Source: Cryobacterium inferilacus (lineage in GTDB: Bacteria > Actinomycetota > Actinomycetes > Actinomycetales > Microbacteriaceae). From it: a stretch of 64,000 bases of DNA. A program made the position numbers and the translations under genes. Location: NCBI RefSeq assembly GCF_019599185.1, contig NZ_JAIEUL010000008.1:1-64000 (forward strand), read 5' to 3'. The notes beneath the pieces are model-generated. The model did no database searches, was not told where the DNA came from, and saw nothing but the letters and a program-made list of their open reading frames with translations. Positions 1 through 50,170 of the stretch are shown here, piece by piece. Numbering within the stretch: position 1 is the first letter of the stretch; each line of letters starts with the position of its first letter.

Positions 1-233
1 GCTTTCTCCAGCGCACTGCGCTTACCCGGTGGAATAGTCATACGACCATCTTCGCGCGGGATCAGGCCACGTTCGAGGTCACCGTCATACACCGCGGCGC
101 TCCACCGCCTCAACCTGTTCCGTGAGATATCCCGCTCAAGCAACCACACGGCTTTCCGCCCGTACGAAAGCCCGTGGTACTCGTGGACCAACTCGCGGAT
201 CTCCACCGCCGTGAACCCTGGCGTAATCGACAT
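1..233 (-). CDS. Transposase OrfA-like protein (probable IS3 family), cut by window edge
   Basis: The frame opens at an ATG at 233, 7 nt after a perfect AGGAGG, and runs off the left edge, so only about 77 N-terminal codons are visible. The protein begins MSITPGFTAVEIRELV and contains a basic helix-turn-helix-like stretch (SRNRLRRW) followed by RGLIPREDG and PPGKR. I recognise this as the style of short OrfA proteins of IS3-type elements in Actinobacteria that recruit the transposase to the element ends; the orfB partner would lie to the left of the window. The 5' flank (289-350) carries an inverted-repeat sequence expected of an IS end. The family call rests on recall of similar proteins, not on a catalytic motif, because the DDE domain is not in view. 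Confidence 0.6.
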   Translation of the reverse strand, partial: MSITPGFTAVEIRELVHEYHGLSYGRKAVWLLERDISRNRLRRWSAAVYDGDLERGLIPREDGRMTIPPGKRSALEK

Positions 234-288
234 GTTCCTGCCTCCTGCTGATCGTGAACTGACTCACAACCAGATTGACGCAGAGGGA

Positions 289-350
289 CTGCGGACAAAT
301 GGTCCCGGTGTGCCGGACGCAATTGTCCGCAGCGGCAACAGTTACGGGCG
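289..350. mobile_element. Probable IS terminal region with inverted repeat
   Basis: Between the transposase start and the asparaginase stop codon lies an imperfect hairpin: CTGCGGACAA at 289-298 pairs with TTGTCCGCAG at 323-332, followed by CGGCAACAGTTACGGG. The block sits where the outer end of the insertion sequence should be and ends only about 10 bp from the asparaginase stop codon. A related block, 46 of 60 bases identical in an ungapped hand alignment, occurs at 48023-48082 with no transposase beside it. The exact element boundary and any target duplication cannot be set from one end. Confidence 0.5.
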
Positions 351-360
351 CAGCGGGCGG

Positions 361-1398
361 CTACACGTAGCTCGCGCGGATCTGGCCGATGGGCTTACCG
401 CCGCCGTGCACAGCGAGCTTGAGCTCTGGCGCGATGGCGTCGACATCGGCGCGACGCACGGCACCGGCATCCGCCAGCAGGCTGAGCGCCACAATGCTGG
501 CCGCCCGGAGGTTGCCGTCGAGGATCTTCAGCGCCACCGTGGTGCCGTTCTCGGCCGAGGCCACCATGATGCCCTCCGCACCACCCTTGACGAACAGGCC
601 CAGGCGTTCGATGGCGATCGAATCGGGCAGGCCAGGCCCGGCGATGACCCAACCGTTTTCCCGCACCGCCTCGGCCAGGAAACCGGCCTCCCGGTAGATC
701 GCGAACGGGGAGCTGGACTTCGACGTGGCGATGCGGGCGATGCCGCGGGCCAGCGCGGTCAGTGACAGCGCGTGCACGGGGGCGCCGCAGCCGTCAACAC
801 CGCTGGCGGCAGGCCGTTCACCGGTGAACCTCTCGACGACGTCGAGAATGCGCTTCTGCAACGGATGTTCGGGGTCGAGATAGCCGTTCGTCACCCAGTG
901 ATTCTGCACGCAGGCGGCGAGCATGGCCGCGTGCTTGCCGGAGCAATCCGAGTAGATCGGGGCGGGGCCCAGGCCCTGACGCACCAGGGCATCCCTGGTG
1001 CCGGAGTCGCCGGGCCAGGTCGGCGTGCAACCCAGGTCGGCCTCGGAGAGGCCGGCGCGGGCGAGCAGCCCGCGCACCAGGTCGGTGTGCTTCTGAGTGC
1101 CGGAGTGGCTCGACGTCGCTATCGCGGCATCCTCACCGCGCAGCACCACGCCGCTGGCCATCACCGCGATCGCCTGGAATGGTTTCATCGACGACCGCGG
1201 AAACACCGGAGCGGTCACGTCGCCGAGCGCGCGCAGCACAGCGCCGTCGCCGCTGAGGACGACGGCCGCACCGGCGTGGCGGGACTCGATGAAGCCGGAG
1301 CGTTCCACGACGGCGAGTTCGACGGCGTCGATGACCTCGATGGTGCCCGCGGTGGCGGGGGCTGCCGCGCTGAAAGCGGCCGGAGTCGATGTCGTCAC
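361..1398 (-). CDS. Asparaginase (asparaginase II-type family)
   Basis: The roughly 345-residue protein matches the family of L-asparaginases typified by the Rhizobium etli enzyme (Pfam Asparaginase_II), which hydrolyse asparagine to aspartate and ammonia in the cytoplasm and are unrelated to E. coli AnsA/AnsB. Characteristic stretches are RSSMKPFQ near residue 70, SSHSGTQKHTD near 95, YSDCSGKHAAMLAAC near 150, GVDGCGAPVHALSL near 200, and the C-terminal AVHGGGKPIGQI. The likely start is a GTG at 1398, 2 bp after the stop codon of the upstream aminotransferase; no good ribosome site is visible, so translation is probably coupled and the exact start is uncertain. Pairing with a GABA-type aminotransferase suggests amino-acid nitrogen catabolism. 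An IS-like sequence abuts its 3' end. Confidence 0.85.
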   Translation of the reverse strand: MTTSTPAAFSAAAPATAGTIEVIDAVELAVVERSGFIESRHAGAAVVLSGDGAVLRALGDVTAPVFPRSSMKPFQAIAVMASGVVLRGEDAAIATSSHSGTQKHTDLVRGLLARAGLSEADLGCTPTWPGDSGTRDALVRQGLGPAPIYSDCSGKHAAMLAACVQNHWVTNGYLDPEHPLQKRILDVVERFTGERPAASGVDGCGAPVHALSLTALARGIARIATSKSSSPFAIYREAGFLAEAVRENGWVIAGPGLPDSIAIERLGLFVKGGAEGIMVASAENGTTVALKILDGNLRAASIVALSLLADAGAVRRADVDAIAPELKLAVHGGGKPIGQIRASYV

Positions 1399-22490: not shown

Positions 22491-22585
22491 TAACCTCTCG
22501 GTGGTACGGGGTCTCCGCTTGATCCCCCTAAAAAGGGAAGAGAGCGGGGACCCCTACCCCGATTCCCTTTTTAGGGGGATCAAGC
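22479..22585 (+). other. Structured infB-rbfA junction: palindrome plus two interlocked hairpins
   Basis: Three strong inverted repeats in 107 nt. First, a perfect 23-nt palindrome at 22479-22501 spanning the infB stop codon (arms CCGAGAGGTTA and TAACCTCTCGG). Second, arms 22503-22519 and 22543-22558 pair over 16 bp with one bulged C and one G-U. Third, perfect 23-bp arms at 22517-22539 and 22563-22585 (GCTTGATCCCCCTAAAAAGG type). The loop of the second helix holds the left arm of the third, so the two are interlocked, as in a pseudoknot or in alternative folds. It may terminate, process or regulate rbfA. I do not recognise a named RNA family. Confidence 0.6.
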
Positions 22586-22676
22586 TACGACCCACACTCC
22601 CCGAGACATCATCCGTCAATCGATGGTGGGGGAGGGCTTAAGAGCTATTGAAGTACCCACAAACTAGGAGTTCGAC

Positions 22677-45149: not shown

Positions 45150-47903
45150 CTACTTGCCGGCCTTACGGGCCGGCTTCTTGGCGTCCACGGCCGGGGCGGC
45201 ACCCTCTGCACCGGTCTCGAGCGCGGCGTCAACCACGGCTGCGCGTCCGGCGCGAACCTCGGCGAACGACGTGCCGTAGTACGCGGCCTCCATGAGGGTC
45301 TTCATGTCGTCCAGCATCGGCATCCGCGGGTTGGCGGGTGCGCACTGGTCGCCGTATGCGCCCATGGCGAGCGAATCGAGACGGCCGATGAACTCGGCCT
45401 CCGGCACGCCCTGCGCCTGGAAGGACGGCTTGATGCCGACCTGGTCGCGCAGCTTCTCGACGGCCTTGGCGTACGACTCGACGCCCTCGGCGGGAGTCGA
45501 GGCCGGGAGGCCGAGGTGCTTGGCGATCTCCTGGAAGCGCTCCGGGGCGATGTAGTGCTCGTACTTGGGCCAGCTGGTCAGCTTCGTCGGGACGGTGCCG
45601 TTGTACCGGATCACGTGCGGCAGGTAGGTCGCGTTGACCCGGCCGTGGATCAGGTGCAGCTGCGCGCCGGTGACGTGCGCCATGGCGTGGACTATGCCCA
45701 GGAACGCGTTACCGAAGGCCATACCGGCGATCGAGGCGGCGTTGTGCATCTTCTCGCGTGCCTTGATCACGGTGTCATCGGTGCTGCCGACGGTGCCCTT
45801 GACGCTGGCCTCGATGTTCTCGAAGATCAGCTTGATCGCGTGCAGGCAGAGACCGTCGGTGAAGTCGTTCGCGTATACCGACACGTACGCCTCGGTGGCG
45901 TGGGTCAGGGCGTCGAAGCCGGAGTCGGCGGCGAGGAACGACGGCATCATGGCCGTGAGCACGGGGTCGATGATCGCGACGGACGGGATCAGCGCGTAGT
46001 CGGCCAGCGGGTACTTGACTCCGGTGACGTCATCGGTGATGACGGCGAACGGGGTCATCTCGCTACCGGTACCCGAGGTGGTCGGGATGCAGACCAGCTT
46101 GGCGAGTTCACCGAGGTCGGGGAACTTGAACGCGCGCTTGCGCACGTCGAAGAACTTCTCCTTCATGTCGGCGAATTCGATTTCGGGGTGTTCGTACAGC
46201 AGCCACATGACCTTCGCGGCGTCCATGGGCGAACCTCCACCGAGGGCGATGATGGTGTCCGGCTTGAAGGCGCGCATTTCCTCTGCGCCCTTCTCGACGG
46301 CGGCAACGGTGGGCTCGGGGAGCACGTTGTCGATGATCTGCAGGGCGACGCGGCCCTCGCGGCGGTTGAGCACGTCGAGGATCTTGTCGACGAAGCCCAG
46401 GCGGGTCATGGTCGAGTCGGTGACGATGGTGACCCGGCTGACGTCGCGCATGTCGGCCAGGTAGCGCACCGCGTTCGGCTCGAAGTAGGTCTTCGCGGGG
46501 ATCTTGAACCACTGCAAGTTGTTGTTCCTCCGGCCGATGCGCTTGACGTTGATCAGGTTGATGGCCGACACGTTGTTCGAGACGGAGTTGTGTCCGTACG
46601 AGCCACAGCCGAGCGTGAGCGAGGGGATGAACGCGTTGTAGATGTCACCGATGCCACCGAGCGAGCTGGGGGCGTTGGTGATGATGCGAACGGCCTTGAC
46701 GCGCTTGCCGAACTCCTCGATGATCGCGGGGTTTTCGCTGTGGATCGAGCCGGAGTGGCCGAGGCCGTCGAATTCCACCATCTGCTCGGAGAGCGAGATG
46801 CCCTCTTCGGCGTCCTTGGCGTGCATGACGGCGAGAACCGGGGCCAGCTTCTCGCGGGTCATCGGCTCGTGCGGGCCGACTCCGGAGACCTCGACCAGGA
46901 TGATCGACGTGTCGTCAGGAACGCTGAAACCGGCCTGCTGGGCGATCCACACCGGCGACTTGCCGACGACGTTCGGGTTCAGCTTGGCGCCGGCGCAGTT
47001 CTCCGAGTGGGCCTGCACACCGAAGATGAACTCCTCGAGGAGGGCCTTTTCTTCCTTGTTGGTGCGGTAGGCGTGCAGGATGGCGAACTCGGCCATGGCC
47101 TCGTTGTAGAGGGGCTCTTCGATGATGACGGCCTGCTCCGAAGCGCAGATCATGCCGTAGTCGAAGGCCTTGGAGAGCACGACGTCGTTGACGGCACGCT
47201 TGAGCTTGGCGCTCTTCTCGATGAAGGCGGGCACGTTGCCGGCGCCGACGCCCAGGGCGGGCTTGCCGCAGGAGTACGCGGCGCGGACCATGGCGTTTCC
47301 GCCGGTGGCGAGGATCAGGGCCACACCGGGGTGGTTCATCAGTAGGGTGGAGGCCTCGAGGGAGGGCTGTTCGATCCACTGGATGCAGTTGGCGGGTGCG
47401 CCTGCTGCGATGGCGGCGTCGCGGACGACGCGGGCGGCGGCTGCGGAGGACTCCTGCGCGGCCGGGTGGAAGCCGAAGATGATGGGGTTGCGGGTCTTGA
47501 GCGCGATGAGCGACTTGAAGATCGCGGTGGAGGTACAGTTCGTGACCGGGGTGATGCCACAGATGACGCCGACGGGCTCGGCGATCTCGGTGATGCCGGT
47601 CAGTTCGTCGCGGCTGATGATGCCGACGGTCTTGAGGTTCTGCATGGAGTTGGTGACGTGCTCGCACGCGAAGAGGTTCTTCACGGCCTTGTCTTCGAAG
47701 ACACCACGGCCGGTCTCGGCGACGGCGTGAACGGCGAGCGTGGCGTGCTGGGACAGCGCGGCGACGGAGGCCTTCTTGACGATGAAGTCGATCTGCTCCT
47801 GAGTGAAGTCAGCGTAATCCTTCAGCGCGACGTTGCCGGCGGCAACCAAGGTGTCGATCTGCGTAGCTATGGGAGTGGCGACTGGTTGGTCTGTGATCGT
47901 CAT
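45150..47903 (-). CDS. adhE: Bifunctional acetaldehyde-CoA/alcohol dehydrogenase
   Basis: A 917-residue fusion enzyme that reduces acetyl-CoA to acetaldehyde and then ethanol. N-terminal aldehyde dehydrogenase domain with the catalytic Cys in GMICASEQAVI near residue 252; C-terminal iron-dependent alcohol dehydrogenase domain with GGGSPMDAAKVMWLLYEHPE, FDALTHATEAYVS and GIVHAMAHVTGAQLHLIHG metal histidines. A 40-residue Ala/Lys tail (AVVDAALETGAEGAAP) extends beyond the usual end. ATG at 47903 is chosen because AGGAGG is 6 nt upstream. AdhE is a fermentation enzyme, unusual for a mainly aerobic actinobacterium. The upstream gap contains the 48008 palindrome. Confidence 0.95.
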   Translation of the reverse strand: MTITDQPVATPIATQIDTLVAAGNVALKDYADFTQEQIDFIVKKASVAALSQHATLAVHAVAETGRGVFEDKAVKNLFACEHVTNSMQNLKTVGIISRDELTGITEIAEPVGVICGITPVTNCTSTAIFKSLIALKTRNPIIFGFHPAAQESSAAAARVVRDAAIAAGAPANCIQWIEQPSLEASTLLMNHPGVALILATGGNAMVRAAYSCGKPALGVGAGNVPAFIEKSAKLKRAVNDVVLSKAFDYGMICASEQAVIIEEPLYNEAMAEFAILHAYRTNKEEKALLEEFIFGVQAHSENCAGAKLNPNVVGKSPVWIAQQAGFSVPDDTSIILVEVSGVGPHEPMTREKLAPVLAVMHAKDAEEGISLSEQMVEFDGLGHSGSIHSENPAIIEEFGKRVKAVRIITNAPSSLGGIGDIYNAFIPSLTLGCGSYGHNSVSNNVSAINLINVKRIGRRNNNLQWFKIPAKTYFEPNAVRYLADMRDVSRVTIVTDSTMTRLGFVDKILDVLNRREGRVALQIIDNVLPEPTVAAVEKGAEEMRAFKPDTIIALGGGSPMDAAKVMWLLYEHPEIEFADMKEKFFDVRKRAFKFPDLGELAKLVCIPTTSGTGSEMTPFAVITDDVTGVKYPLADYALIPSVAIIDPVLTAMMPSFLAADSGFDALTHATEAYVSVYANDFTDGLCLHAIKLIFENIEASVKGTVGSTDDTVIKAREKMHNAASIAGMAFGNAFLGIVHAMAHVTGAQLHLIHGRVNATYLPHVIRYNGTVPTKLTSWPKYEHYIAPERFQEIAKHLGLPASTPAEGVESYAKAVEKLRDQVGIKPSFQAQGVPEAEFIGRLDSLAMGAYGDQCAPANPRMPMLDDMKTLMEAAYYGTSFAEVRAGRAAVVDAALETGAEGAAPAVDAKKPARKAGK

Positions 47904-48007
47904 AGTTTTCCTCCTGGACAACCCGATCTGGGATCTTTGTCTCTGGTTCAAACATAGGCTCCATAAACGCCGGAAACACGGGCCAAAGGTCCCACGTCCA
48001 GCCATCC

Positions 48008-48077
48008 GCAACTGTTGCCCGTGCGGACATTTGCGCCCGGCGCACCGGGACCATTTGTCCGCTTCGGGAACAGTTAC
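48008..48077. repeat. 70-bp imperfect palindrome related to the left-edge IS sequence
   Basis: Two 35-bp arms (48008-48042 and 48043-48077) match at 25 of 35 positions with no loop, outer ends GCAACTGTT/AACAGTTAC. The right part, 48023-48082, matches 291-350 beside the transposase at 46 of 60 bases. No transposase is nearby. It lies between the adhE start and the nifS stop. It could be an IS-derived remnant or MITE, a terminator or an adhE operator. Confidence 0.6.
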
Positions 48078-48108
48078 GGGCGGGCCGGGCGGGGCGGGCC
48101 GGGCGCGG

Positions 48109-49251
48109 CTAGCGGGCGAGGCCGCGCACGGCGAGCACGGCGTCGTGCACGCGGGCGGCGGTCTCGGTGAGCTCGGCGGCCGTGGTGGTGGCCGAGAGGG
48201 TGAAGCGCACGGCGGTCTGGGCGAGGTCGGCCGGGATGCCCAGCGCGGTGAGCACGTGCGACGGCTCGTCGCTGCCGGCGGCGCACGCCGATCCGCTCGA
48301 GCAAACGATGTCGAAGCGCTCCAGCTCGAGCAGCACGGCCTCCCCGCCGGTGCCGGCGAAGGTGAACGAGGCGTGGCCGGGCAGGCGGTGCACGGGGTCG
48401 CCGGTCAGGGCGGCACCCGGGGTGCCGGCCAGCACCGTGGCCACGAAGGTGTCGCGCAGCCCGGCCAGCCGCTCGGCCAGTTCGAGGCGTTCGGTCTCGG
48501 CCAGATCGAGGGCTGTCGCCAGGCCCACGGCGCCGGCCACGTTCTCGGTGCCGCTGCGTTTGCCGCGCTCCTGGCCGCCGCCGTGCAGCACCGGTTCCAC
48601 GGTGAGCCGGCCGCGCATGAACAGCGCGCCCACGCCCTGCGGCGCGCCGAGCTTGTGCCCGGAGATGCTCAGGGCATCGACACCGAGGTCGGCGACGTTC
48701 AGCGGTAGCCAGCCGGCGGCCTGCACGGCATCGGTGTGGAACGGCACACCGTTCGCGCGGGCGACCGCGGCCAGGTCGGCGATCGGCTGCACGGTGCCGA
48801 TCTCATTGTTGGCGTAGTGCACGGTGACGAGGGTGCTGTCGGGGCGGATGACCCTGGCGAGTTCGACCGGGTCGACGCGGCCGGCGGCATCCGTGGCCAG
48901 CATCGTGATCTCGAAGCCGTGCAGCCGGTGCAGGTAGTCGCAGGATTCGAGTACGGCCTCGTGTTCGAGGGCGGTGGTGATGATGTGGCGGCCGCGCGGG
49001 TTGCCGAGGGCGAGGCCCTTGATCGCCAGGTTGTCGGCCTCTGTGCCGCCGCTGGTGAGGGTGATCTCGCCCGGGCGGCAGCCCAGCACCCTGGCGATGC
49101 GGGTGCGGGCAGACGTGAGTGCGGCCGCGGCCGCCTCGCCCACCCGGTGGTGGCTGGACGGGTTGCCGAAGCCGCGGGTCAGGAGGGGCCAGATCGCCTC
49201 GGCGACCTCGCGGCGCAGCGGCGTTGTCGCGGCGTTATCGAGGTAGATCAT
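48109..49251 (-). CDS. nifS: Cysteine desulfurase (NifS-like)
   Basis: A 380-residue PLP enzyme releasing sulfur from cysteine. MIYLDNAATTPLRREVAEAI opens it; LTSGGTEADNLAIKG, HEAVLESCDYLHRL, the PLP lysine in SISGHKLGAPQGVGAL near residue 200, GGGQERGKRSGTENV, and the loop cysteine in DIVCSSGSACAAGSDEPSHVL near 320 are all present. It is last in the nrtR-nadA-nadB-nadC operon, where a NifS-type enzyme probably supplies sulfur for the NadA [4Fe-4S] cluster. ATG at 49251 with AGGAAG upstream. Confidence 0.93.
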   Translation of the reverse strand: MIYLDNAATTPLRREVAEAIWPLLTRGFGNPSSHHRVGEAAAAALTSARTRIARVLGCRPGEITLTSGGTEADNLAIKGLALGNPRGRHIITTALEHEAVLESCDYLHRLHGFEITMLATDAAGRVDPVELARVIRPDSTLVTVHYANNEIGTVQPIADLAAVARANGVPFHTDAVQAAGWLPLNVADLGVDALSISGHKLGAPQGVGALFMRGRLTVEPVLHGGGQERGKRSGTENVAGAVGLATALDLAETERLELAERLAGLRDTFVATVLAGTPGAALTGDPVHRLPGHASFTFAGTGGEAVLLELERFDIVCSSGSACAAGSDEPSHVLTALGIPADLAQTAVRFTLSATTTAAELTETAARVHDAVLAVRGLAR

Positions 49252-49294
49252 GGCGGCTTCCTGGCGGCTGGCGGGTGGATGGACGGGGCGGCGG

Positions 49295-50170
49295 TCAGGC
49301 CGTGGGGAAGACGGCCTCTGGCAGGATGACGACGTCGAGGCCGAGGTCGAGGGAACGCACGCTGTGGGTGAGCGCGCCGACGGAGATGACGTCGACACCG
49401 GACTCGGCGATGCGTTTCACGGTCTGCAGGGAGACACCGCCGCTGGCCTCCACGATCGCCCGGCCGGCGATGCGCCGCACGCCCTCACGCAGGTCACCCT
49501 GGTCGAAGTTGTCGAGCATGATCGTGTCGATGCCGGCCGCGAGCACGGGTTCGATCTGCTCGAGGGTGTCCACCTCCACCTCGAAGTGCGTGGTGTGCGA
49601 GAGCTTCGCTCGCACGGCCCGCAGCGCCTCGGTGAGGTCGGTGCCGCCGGCGCTGAGCACGGCCAGGTGGTTGTCCTTGGCCATCACGGCGTCGGACAGG
49701 CTGAAGCGATGGTTGTGGCCGCCGCCGTCGCGCACGGCCTGGCGTTCGAACGCGCGGAGGCCGGGTGTGGTCTTGCGGGTGTCGACGATGCGGGCGTTGG
49801 TGCCGGCGACCTCGGCGACGTACCGGGCGGTGAGGGTGGCGATTCCGCTCATCCGCTGCACGAAGTTCAGGCCGATGCGTTCGGCCTGCAGAATGCCCCT
49901 GGCCGGGCCGGATGCCTCGGCGAGCAGATCGCCGGCGGCGAAAGTGCTGCCGTCGCGGGCGAGCAGGCGCACGGTGATGCGCGGGTCGACCAGCCGGAAG
50001 GCGGCGTCGAACACGGCCCCGCCGCTGAAGACGCCGGGCTCCCTGGCCACCAGCTGGGCGGTGGCGACGGCGTCTTCGGGAATCAGCATCTCGCTGGTGA
50101 GGTCGCCCCAGGGGGCGTCTTCGTCGAGGGCCGCGCGAACGACGGTGTCGATGGCGGACGTGGTCAGCAT
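49295..50170 (-). CDS. nadC: Nicotinate-nucleotide diphosphorylase (carboxylating)
   Basis: A 291-residue quinolinate phosphoribosyltransferase making nicotinate mononucleotide from quinolinate and PRPP. ALDEDAPWGDLTSEMLIP, MSGIATLTARYV, VDTRKTTPGLRAFERQAVRDGGGHNHRFSLSDAVMAKDNHL and EVEVDTLEQI, with IMLDNF near residue 225, are the known substrate-binding blocks. ATG at 50170 overlaps the nadB stop (7 bp). It follows nadA-nadB in the usual actinobacterial order. Confidence 0.95.
   Translation of the reverse strand: MLTTSAIDTVVRAALDEDAPWGDLTSEMLIPEDAVATAQLVAREPGVFSGGAVFDAAFRLVDPRITVRLLARDGSTFAAGDLLAEASGPARGILQAERIGLNFVQRMSGIATLTARYVAEVAGTNARIVDTRKTTPGLRAFERQAVRDGGGHNHRFSLSDAVMAKDNHLAVLSAGGTDLTEALRAVRAKLSHTTHFEVEVDTLEQIEPVLAAGIDTIMLDNFDQGDLREGVRRIAGRAIVEASGGVSLQTVKRIAESGVDVISVGALTHSVRSLDLGLDVVILPEAVFPTA

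Follow-up and report, generated by a model that had tools for sequence, protein, structure and literature searches.

A dispersed 66-bp palindrome family in Cryobacterium inferilacus and an IS3-like element that inserts at its shoulder

The palindrome at 48 kb of the stretch analysed here (the window, bases 1-64000 of contig C74 in a 4.02-Mb draft genome of 75 contigs, G000) is one copy of a dispersed, sharply bounded family of 66-bp palindromes that is found at about 66 places in the genome, is intergenic and lies mostly shortly after stop codons. An IS3-like insertion sequence (IS) uses the shoulder between the outer and the inner arm of this palindrome as a preferred insertion site, and a copy broken in this way is preserved at 288-343, near the left edge of the window. 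We consider it probable that the palindrome is an older, REP-like and non-autonomous repeat, that the constraint on it acts on double-stranded DNA, and that a putative protein reads and perhaps also copies it.

The 66-bp element and its copies in the genome

The relevant features of the window are as follows.

48010..48075, no strand: intact 66-bp palindromic element, defined over all 66 bp by a 36-copy alignment, with a model match of 1-66 and a four-motif layout (motif 48010-48021, spacer 48022-48028, motif 48029-48040, YRYR centre 48041-48044, then the mirror image)
288..343, minus strand: second copy, columns 1-56 (a remnant of 56 of the 66 columns), interrupted by the IS; 288-290 are columns 54-56 of this copy and correspond to the expected 3-bp target duplication, the other side being off the contig
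1..287, minus strand: 5' end of the IS3-like insertion sequence, cut by the contig edge, with the orfA start codon at 231-233 and the family taken from a full-length relative in genome G031
361..1398, minus strand: asparaginase II-like gene (PF06089), whose stop adjoins the interrupted copy
45150..47903, minus strand: adhE-type aldehyde/alcohol dehydrogenase gene (PF00171, PF00465), whose 5' leader extends towards the element
48109..49398, minus strand: aminotransferase class V / cysteine desulfurase-like gene (PF00266), whose 3' end adjoins the element (the gene-calling script places its start at 49251)

A preliminary description of this DNA had reported an orphan 70-bp palindrome sharing its sequence with an IS end close to the left edge. 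The underlying match was reproduced: 291-350 and 48023-48082 are identical at 46 of 60 positions in an ungapped comparison within the window, where the next best place on the same strand reaches 34/60 (mean 16.9, sd 3.4). The antiparallel register is stronger, with 48006-48062 being 89% complementary to 291-347 over 57 nt, the longest inverted pair among the matches listed for the window. The palindromic nature of the block also stands (fold energy -46.9 kcal/mol, z = -7.5 against 200 shuffles), as does the observation that minus-strand stop codons adjoin both blocks, at 361 (asparaginase) and 48109 (cysteine desulfurase-like). The length and boundaries had to be revised to the 66 bp given above, and a search of the genome removes the orphan status. 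The block at 291 is not an IS end, since the IS ends at 287 and 288-343 is a broken copy of the palindrome; the extra left arm is indeed missing there, because the IS interrupts that copy.

A first genome search with the palindrome gave 63 matches, many of them the two strands of one copy. A covariance model gave 133 matches, which were merged by hand into at least 67 places, or 66 without a weak and different match on contig C44 (the best 150 of 5027 candidates were scored). Some places are 67 bp long or broken by the IS. The 36 aligned copies occupy 66 columns without gaps and have sharp ends (AACTGTT...AACAGTT), and the median likeness between copies is 82%.

In each element, both arms hold two copies of a 12-bp motif; a CGGAC spacer and a CCGG-YRYR-CCGG centre complete it, in the layout motif(12)-7-motif(12)-4-mirror. 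The strict skeleton CGGAC-8-CCGG-4-CCGG-8-GTCCG has 61 matches in this genome, compared with 0 for a reversed control. The centre is YRYR in all 99 copies analysed (59 of 63 from this genome, four weak or IS-broken copies having been dropped, and 40 from elsewhere) and is represented by 13 different sequences. Outside the elements, YRYR occupies 25 of 173 comparable CCGGNNNNCCGG sites, a control that excludes nine sites close to the skeleton and whose loci overlap slightly with the window and with each other. There is one exception, a skeleton match outside the analysed set with the centre GATG (G033). Many of the copies counted here have a common ancestry, which makes the counts non-independent. 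A reading of the repeat as an uptake sequence was rejected, as half motifs hardly occur beyond the palindromes in 175 kb of this genome.

Placement after gene ends and tests for a transcribed hairpin

Neighbouring genes were called with a simple codon-usage script, and both neighbours were obtained for 59 of 63 copies (4 were left out). None of the 59 lies inside a gene; 21 stand between convergent, 31 between tandem and 7 between divergent genes. A stop codon occurs within 30 bp of 37 copies and within 50 bp of 45, the median distances being 22 nt to a stop (n=73) and 104 nt to a start (n=45), and 29 of the 31 tandem copies are closer to the stop than to the start. The copy at 48010-48075 lies 33 bp away from the stop of the desulfurase gene and 106 bp away from the start of adhE. 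It had been placed in the adhE promoter region, which is correct as a location; this position is incidental, as the adhE leader is conserved in close relatives and the element lies outside this conserved part. Of 40 loci outside this lineage, 35 in other genera and 5 in Cryobacterium G047/G033, 25 are tandem, 9 convergent and 1 divergent, with 5 not assignable. Copies also cluster locally, 8 of 44 neighbouring pairs being less than 3.5 kb apart against about 2.5 expected.

A bidirectional transcription terminator or mRNA 3'-end hairpin, duplicated many times and kept for its RNA structure, would fit this placement and is the main rival reading, though in our view a rather doubtful one. Its attractions are the position after stop codons, repeated in the other lineages (there the stop is closer than the start for 22 of 25 tandem copies), the long stable fold, and the convergent gap at C33_180827, where three relatives carry a GC-rich hairpin instead of the element. 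One element is located directly 3' of a tRNA-Gly gene (L275:939-1012, in G007) and a look-alike directly 3' of a tRNA-Pro gene (L195:1576-1650, genus 43). Convergent neighbours are also more frequent for copies (21/59) than for the remaining gaps of 70 bp or more in these loci (1 convergent, 20 tandem, 11 divergent; 1/32, p = 0.0003). However, this excess disappears when gaps of 70 bp or more from the window itself serve as the control (7 convergent, 11 tandem, 10 divergent; 7/28, p = 0.46), and convergent-gene enrichment as proof of a terminator was set aside as dependent on the control chosen. No U-run follows the hairpin in the 36-copy alignment or the flank composition, and a terminator needs neither a YRYR centre nor a constant length.

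If a transcribed hairpin were the constraint, G.U should be preferred over A.C on the sense strand, together with one type of centre. On the sense strand of 30 of the 31 tandem copies, G.T and A.C occur 9 and 10 times (the test thus rests on 19 wobble-type events), centre types divide 15 to 14, model orientations divide 15 to 15, and the fold energies of the two strands do not differ (p = 0.54). Covariation between the arms scores 0.042 against 0.034, with 39 of 500 shuffles as high, which is borderline; paired cells amount to 91.7% against 90.8% (29/500 shuffles as high), and 4 pairs have changed on both sides compared with 3.6 in shuffles. Covariation as proof of a hairpin is therefore at most borderline. 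The agreement of the inner arms is slightly raised in the window's own clade (0.765 against 0.729 when shuffled, p = 0.004), no other group reaching p < 0.1, and together with the borderline column test this makes a pairing constraint conceivable in that clade. Given no strand bias and at most borderline covariation, in tests of modest power, we lean towards a site for a protein that binds double-stranded DNA, and favour such a DNA-level site over an RNA terminator, though not decisively. A shared terminator form, as proposed in the preliminary description, may still hold: the 3'-end position agrees with it, but the symmetry between the strands and the weak covariation argue against RNA structure being what mainly constrains the element.

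Turnover and distribution among relatives

In the spacer between adhE and the desulfurase-like gene, five of ten resolved close relatives (G039, G052, G050, G023 and G011) have an intact or near-intact copy. The spacer of G007 holds a deletion derivative with outer-arm remnants only, those of G031 and G004 a degenerate copy, and those of G002 and G041 none that is intact; an eleventh relative, G024, gave no clear result and is outside the ten. No copy was seen by eye in this spacer in the more distant relatives displayed. At another eight sites, orthologous loci from as many as three relatives each were examined, and the 20 ortholog comparisons made (a partial set) comprise 10 with the element present, 1 with an inner-stem deletion and 9 with the element absent. 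Deletion derivatives with outer arms only were seen at L270 (around C22:41315), L271 (around C23:24476), L080 and L175, as expected from replication slippage.

Within the genus the distribution is patchy, with a match at E 0.001 in 19 of 41 genomes, and the genomes with the most matches are also those closest at the adhE locus. All 6 stretches of named records that contain the exact core pattern are from Cryobacterium (C. zongtaii, C. lactosi and a MAG of the genus). A family-wide model search gave matches in 16 of 299 genomes and 11 of 85 genera, some being weak look-alikes only, and the strict skeleton is present in 17 of 398 family genomes and 6 of 85 genera, within each genus in only part of the genomes drawn. 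Among 396 genomes drawn from the order, it was found in the present genome and in one other, whose single match looks like chance. Some positions are common to different genera: both genes flanking L250 (genus 3) are shared with C18_27397, L256 (genus 76) and C4_112060 share the gene whose 3' end adjoins the element, and at L232 the element is one gene away in the desulfurase cluster.

The motif itself differs between lineages, which can be described as dialects. It is AACTGTTsCCCG in the outer and AATTGCGCCCGG in the inner position in the genome of the window, AACTGTTGCCGG in Cryobacterium G047/G033, AGTAGT... in genus 78 and GTTTTCACCCG / GAGTTCACCCGG in genus 3, with others in genera 17 and 76. 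Several lineages have similar outer and inner motifs; the resemblance is weaker in the window's genome and in genus 78 and absent in genus 58.

We regard as unlikely that the element serves as a binding site for a nucleoid or chromosome-organising protein and is inherited vertically, without mobility and with dialects produced by slow co-evolution. Such a site would fit the positions common to species, the symmetric four-motif layout with its YRYR centre, and the proximity at adhE of the genomes richest in matches. Against this, the element is missing from 9 of the 20 ortholog comparisons, the strict skeleton is restricted to some of the genomes drawn from each of the six genera, and copies form clusters rather than being evenly spaced.

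Search for a mobilizing enzyme or parent element

We detected no Y1 transposase (PF01797) in the 57 genomes of the genus, with 5 of 14 control genomes positive. Around 59 copies, target-site duplications of 2-9 bp show no clear excess over shuffled flanks, and thus no transposition signature; one exact 5-bp flank duplication was found, with 0.16 expected. Among the unpaired arms listed for this genome there is no autonomous parent with the same ends, the two arms outside known copies being internal-deletion derivatives. Collections of plasmids, phages and viral contigs gave no match to the palindrome at the limits used, and gene starts in nine cluster regions revealed no apparent common candidate between clustered copies. 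By eye, neither a GTAG nor a CGTC end tag is present in the 36-copy consensus or in the flank counts of the 59 copies.

REP-type palindromes are best known from proteobacteria, and RAYT transposases are thought to move them. Like REP, BIME and REPIN sequences, the Cryobacterium repeat consists of short, dispersed extragenic palindromes with tens of copies per genome that serve as IS targets; it differs in its two motif copies per arm, CGGAC spacer and YRYR centre. That it could be a classical REP or REPIN moved by a RAYT (Y1 tyrosine transposase) is very improbable: dispersal, local clustering and targeting by an IS3-like element, as documented for REPs (PMC1525189), would agree with this, whereas the missing Y1 enzyme and end tags, and a length of 66 bp compared with the 20-40 bp given for REPs in PMC3733652, do not.

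Integron attC sites are likewise palindromes that follow stop codons, with paired boxes and shoulders and similarity within a genome; their outer boxes are RYYYAAC / GTTRRRY. The 66-bp copies share the first set of properties, but lack these outer boxes, having a strong flank bias only at the first base outside, and they follow unrelated chromosomal genes. Compared with intrinsic terminators, which are also stable hairpins just 3' of stop codons, the 66-bp element is without U-run or strand bias and has a sequence skeleton common to six genera. Among the best-ranked titles of open-licence literature on Cryobacterium or Microbacteriaceae repeats, Cryobacterium insertion sequences and transposases, actinobacterial REPs and terminators, we recognized no description of this repeat.

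An IS3-like element that lands in palindromes

Mapping of the left-edge IS placed its end at 287, and full-length relatives in G031 measure 1508 bp. Two ORFs are present in the G031 element, one of 134 aa and one listed at 354 aa; the latter overruns the IS end by about 34 bp. It contains an integrase core (PF00665, E 3.6e-18), and its best model is the IS3 transposase NF033516 (E 7.7e-43); we use the name IS3-like because the score of 147.1 bits is below the curated cut-off of 160.

In G000, all 6 of the IS 5' junctions found abut a piece of the palindrome, as do both of those in G031 and one of the two in G007. Of these 10 junctions, 9 are at a shoulder, with 7 following column 56 and 2 following mirror column 13, and the two G031 copies with both sides present have 3-bp target duplications, TTC and ATT. 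The suggestion that the palindrome is a target favoured by the IS is thereby borne out. Contigs C5 and C3 start with what appear to be the two sides of one broken copy, inferred rather than joined, with CGT on both. Several ends of the draft contigs (C74:1, C74:159543, C13, C14, C5, C6 and C3) fall inside IS copies, and the IS is therefore under-assembled in copy number.

IS relatives in other genomes do not use the 66-bp palindrome. In G005 (L131-L135), a different palindrome, CCAATTCGACGGAG...CTCCGTCGAATTGG, probably another dispersed repeat, was seen by eye to contain 4 of 5 copies of an IS relative and to have the fifth at its edge; the duplications of four copies, also read by eye, are GAA, TTC, TTT and GAA. 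Thus, the preference of the IS appears to be for palindromes, not for a single sequence. In G035 (L138), an IS relative seems to sit within yet another hairpin, with ATGCCCTG and CAGGGCAT on its two sides.

The palindrome does not owe its presence to the IS. In the five relatives with an intact or near-intact copy upstream of adhE, the 77-aa transposase start found no match at E 1e-6. This argues against the shared transposase that had been proposed for a non-autonomous element and supports a favoured target; a palindrome kept upstream of adhE in genomes lacking the IS was one of the outcomes that the preliminary description had named as refuting. The palindrome as a MITE or relic mobilized by the left-edge IS can be dismissed almost entirely: the two adjoin at several sites, but the IS termini (CCCTCTGCG... 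and ...CGCGCG) and the palindrome ends differ, with no terminal inverted repeats in common, the IS is found inserted within the palindrome, flanked by 3-bp duplications, those five genomes carry the palindrome without a transposase match, and in G005 the same kind of IS occurs at a different palindrome.

The closest precedent for this choice of target is ISPsy8, an IS3-family element that interrupts a REP at a single point and leaves a three-base repeat (PMC1525189); IS1397 and ISKpn1 are further REP-targeting IS3-family elements, and in the type 1 REP-targeting IS of PMC1525189 every copy is at one REP position. The Cryobacterium IS resembles ISPsy8 in its apparent insertion at a fixed point of a repeated palindrome, its 3-base duplication and its IS3-like transposase. 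It differs from ISPsy8, which inserts at the axis, by inserting at the shoulder between two helices, in an actinobacterial host, and by having relatives in G005 that use another palindrome. The present data add an actinobacterial case of an IS3-like element landing in palindromes at one exact point, and the palindrome copies provide defined sites for testing IS target choice.

A repeat probably read by a putative protein

In Microbacteriaceae the repeat forms a REP-like family of novel construction, and its fixed length and lineage dialects, with no Y1 enzyme detected in the genus, point to a different engine. In the reading we prefer, that of an older repeat constrained as double-stranded DNA, a lineage-specific 12-bp motif present four times (motif-7-motif-4-mirror), on either side of a flexible pyrimidine-purine centre, would be the layout expected for a symmetric protein complex. 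A putative trans-acting protein would read, and probably copy, the palindrome, so that each lineage would keep its own motif dialect. Copies would survive where they do least harm, i.e., after gene ends, and any use as bidirectional terminators would be secondary. We infer the copying by a protein from the dialects, the gain and loss of copies and their clustering.

Some observations run against this preferred reading. The searches described above revealed neither a mobilizing enzyme nor a binding protein, and the flanks gave no transposition signature. Several sites are common to different species, and the L250/C18_27397 pair is conserved on both sides across genera, which also fits vertical inheritance with a local function. 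Moreover, outer and inner motifs differ in the window's clade, and the genus-58 pair breaks the pattern of equal outer and inner motifs.

A more specific version is possible, and we propose it tentatively: the element may be a four-site DNA docking array for an undescribed Microbacteriaceae protein, either a domesticated transposase or recombinase or an organizer of gene ends. Its motif would have drifted into dialects while the CGGAC spacer, the 66-bp length and the kinkable YRYR dyad stayed fixed, making it REP-like with a non-RAYT engine.

Other features of the window

Rfam models at gathering scores matched only a single tRNA in the whole window. A 44-nt inverted repeat at 22496-22606, with arms 80% complementary and 23 nt between them, is apparently unrelated to the 66-bp family. 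In the adhE leader, GGGCCAAAGGTCCC (47980-47993) has at most one change in all ten resolved close relatives, and the spacer behind it diverges; we take this sequence to be reminiscent of an anaerobic-regulator (DosR-like) box.
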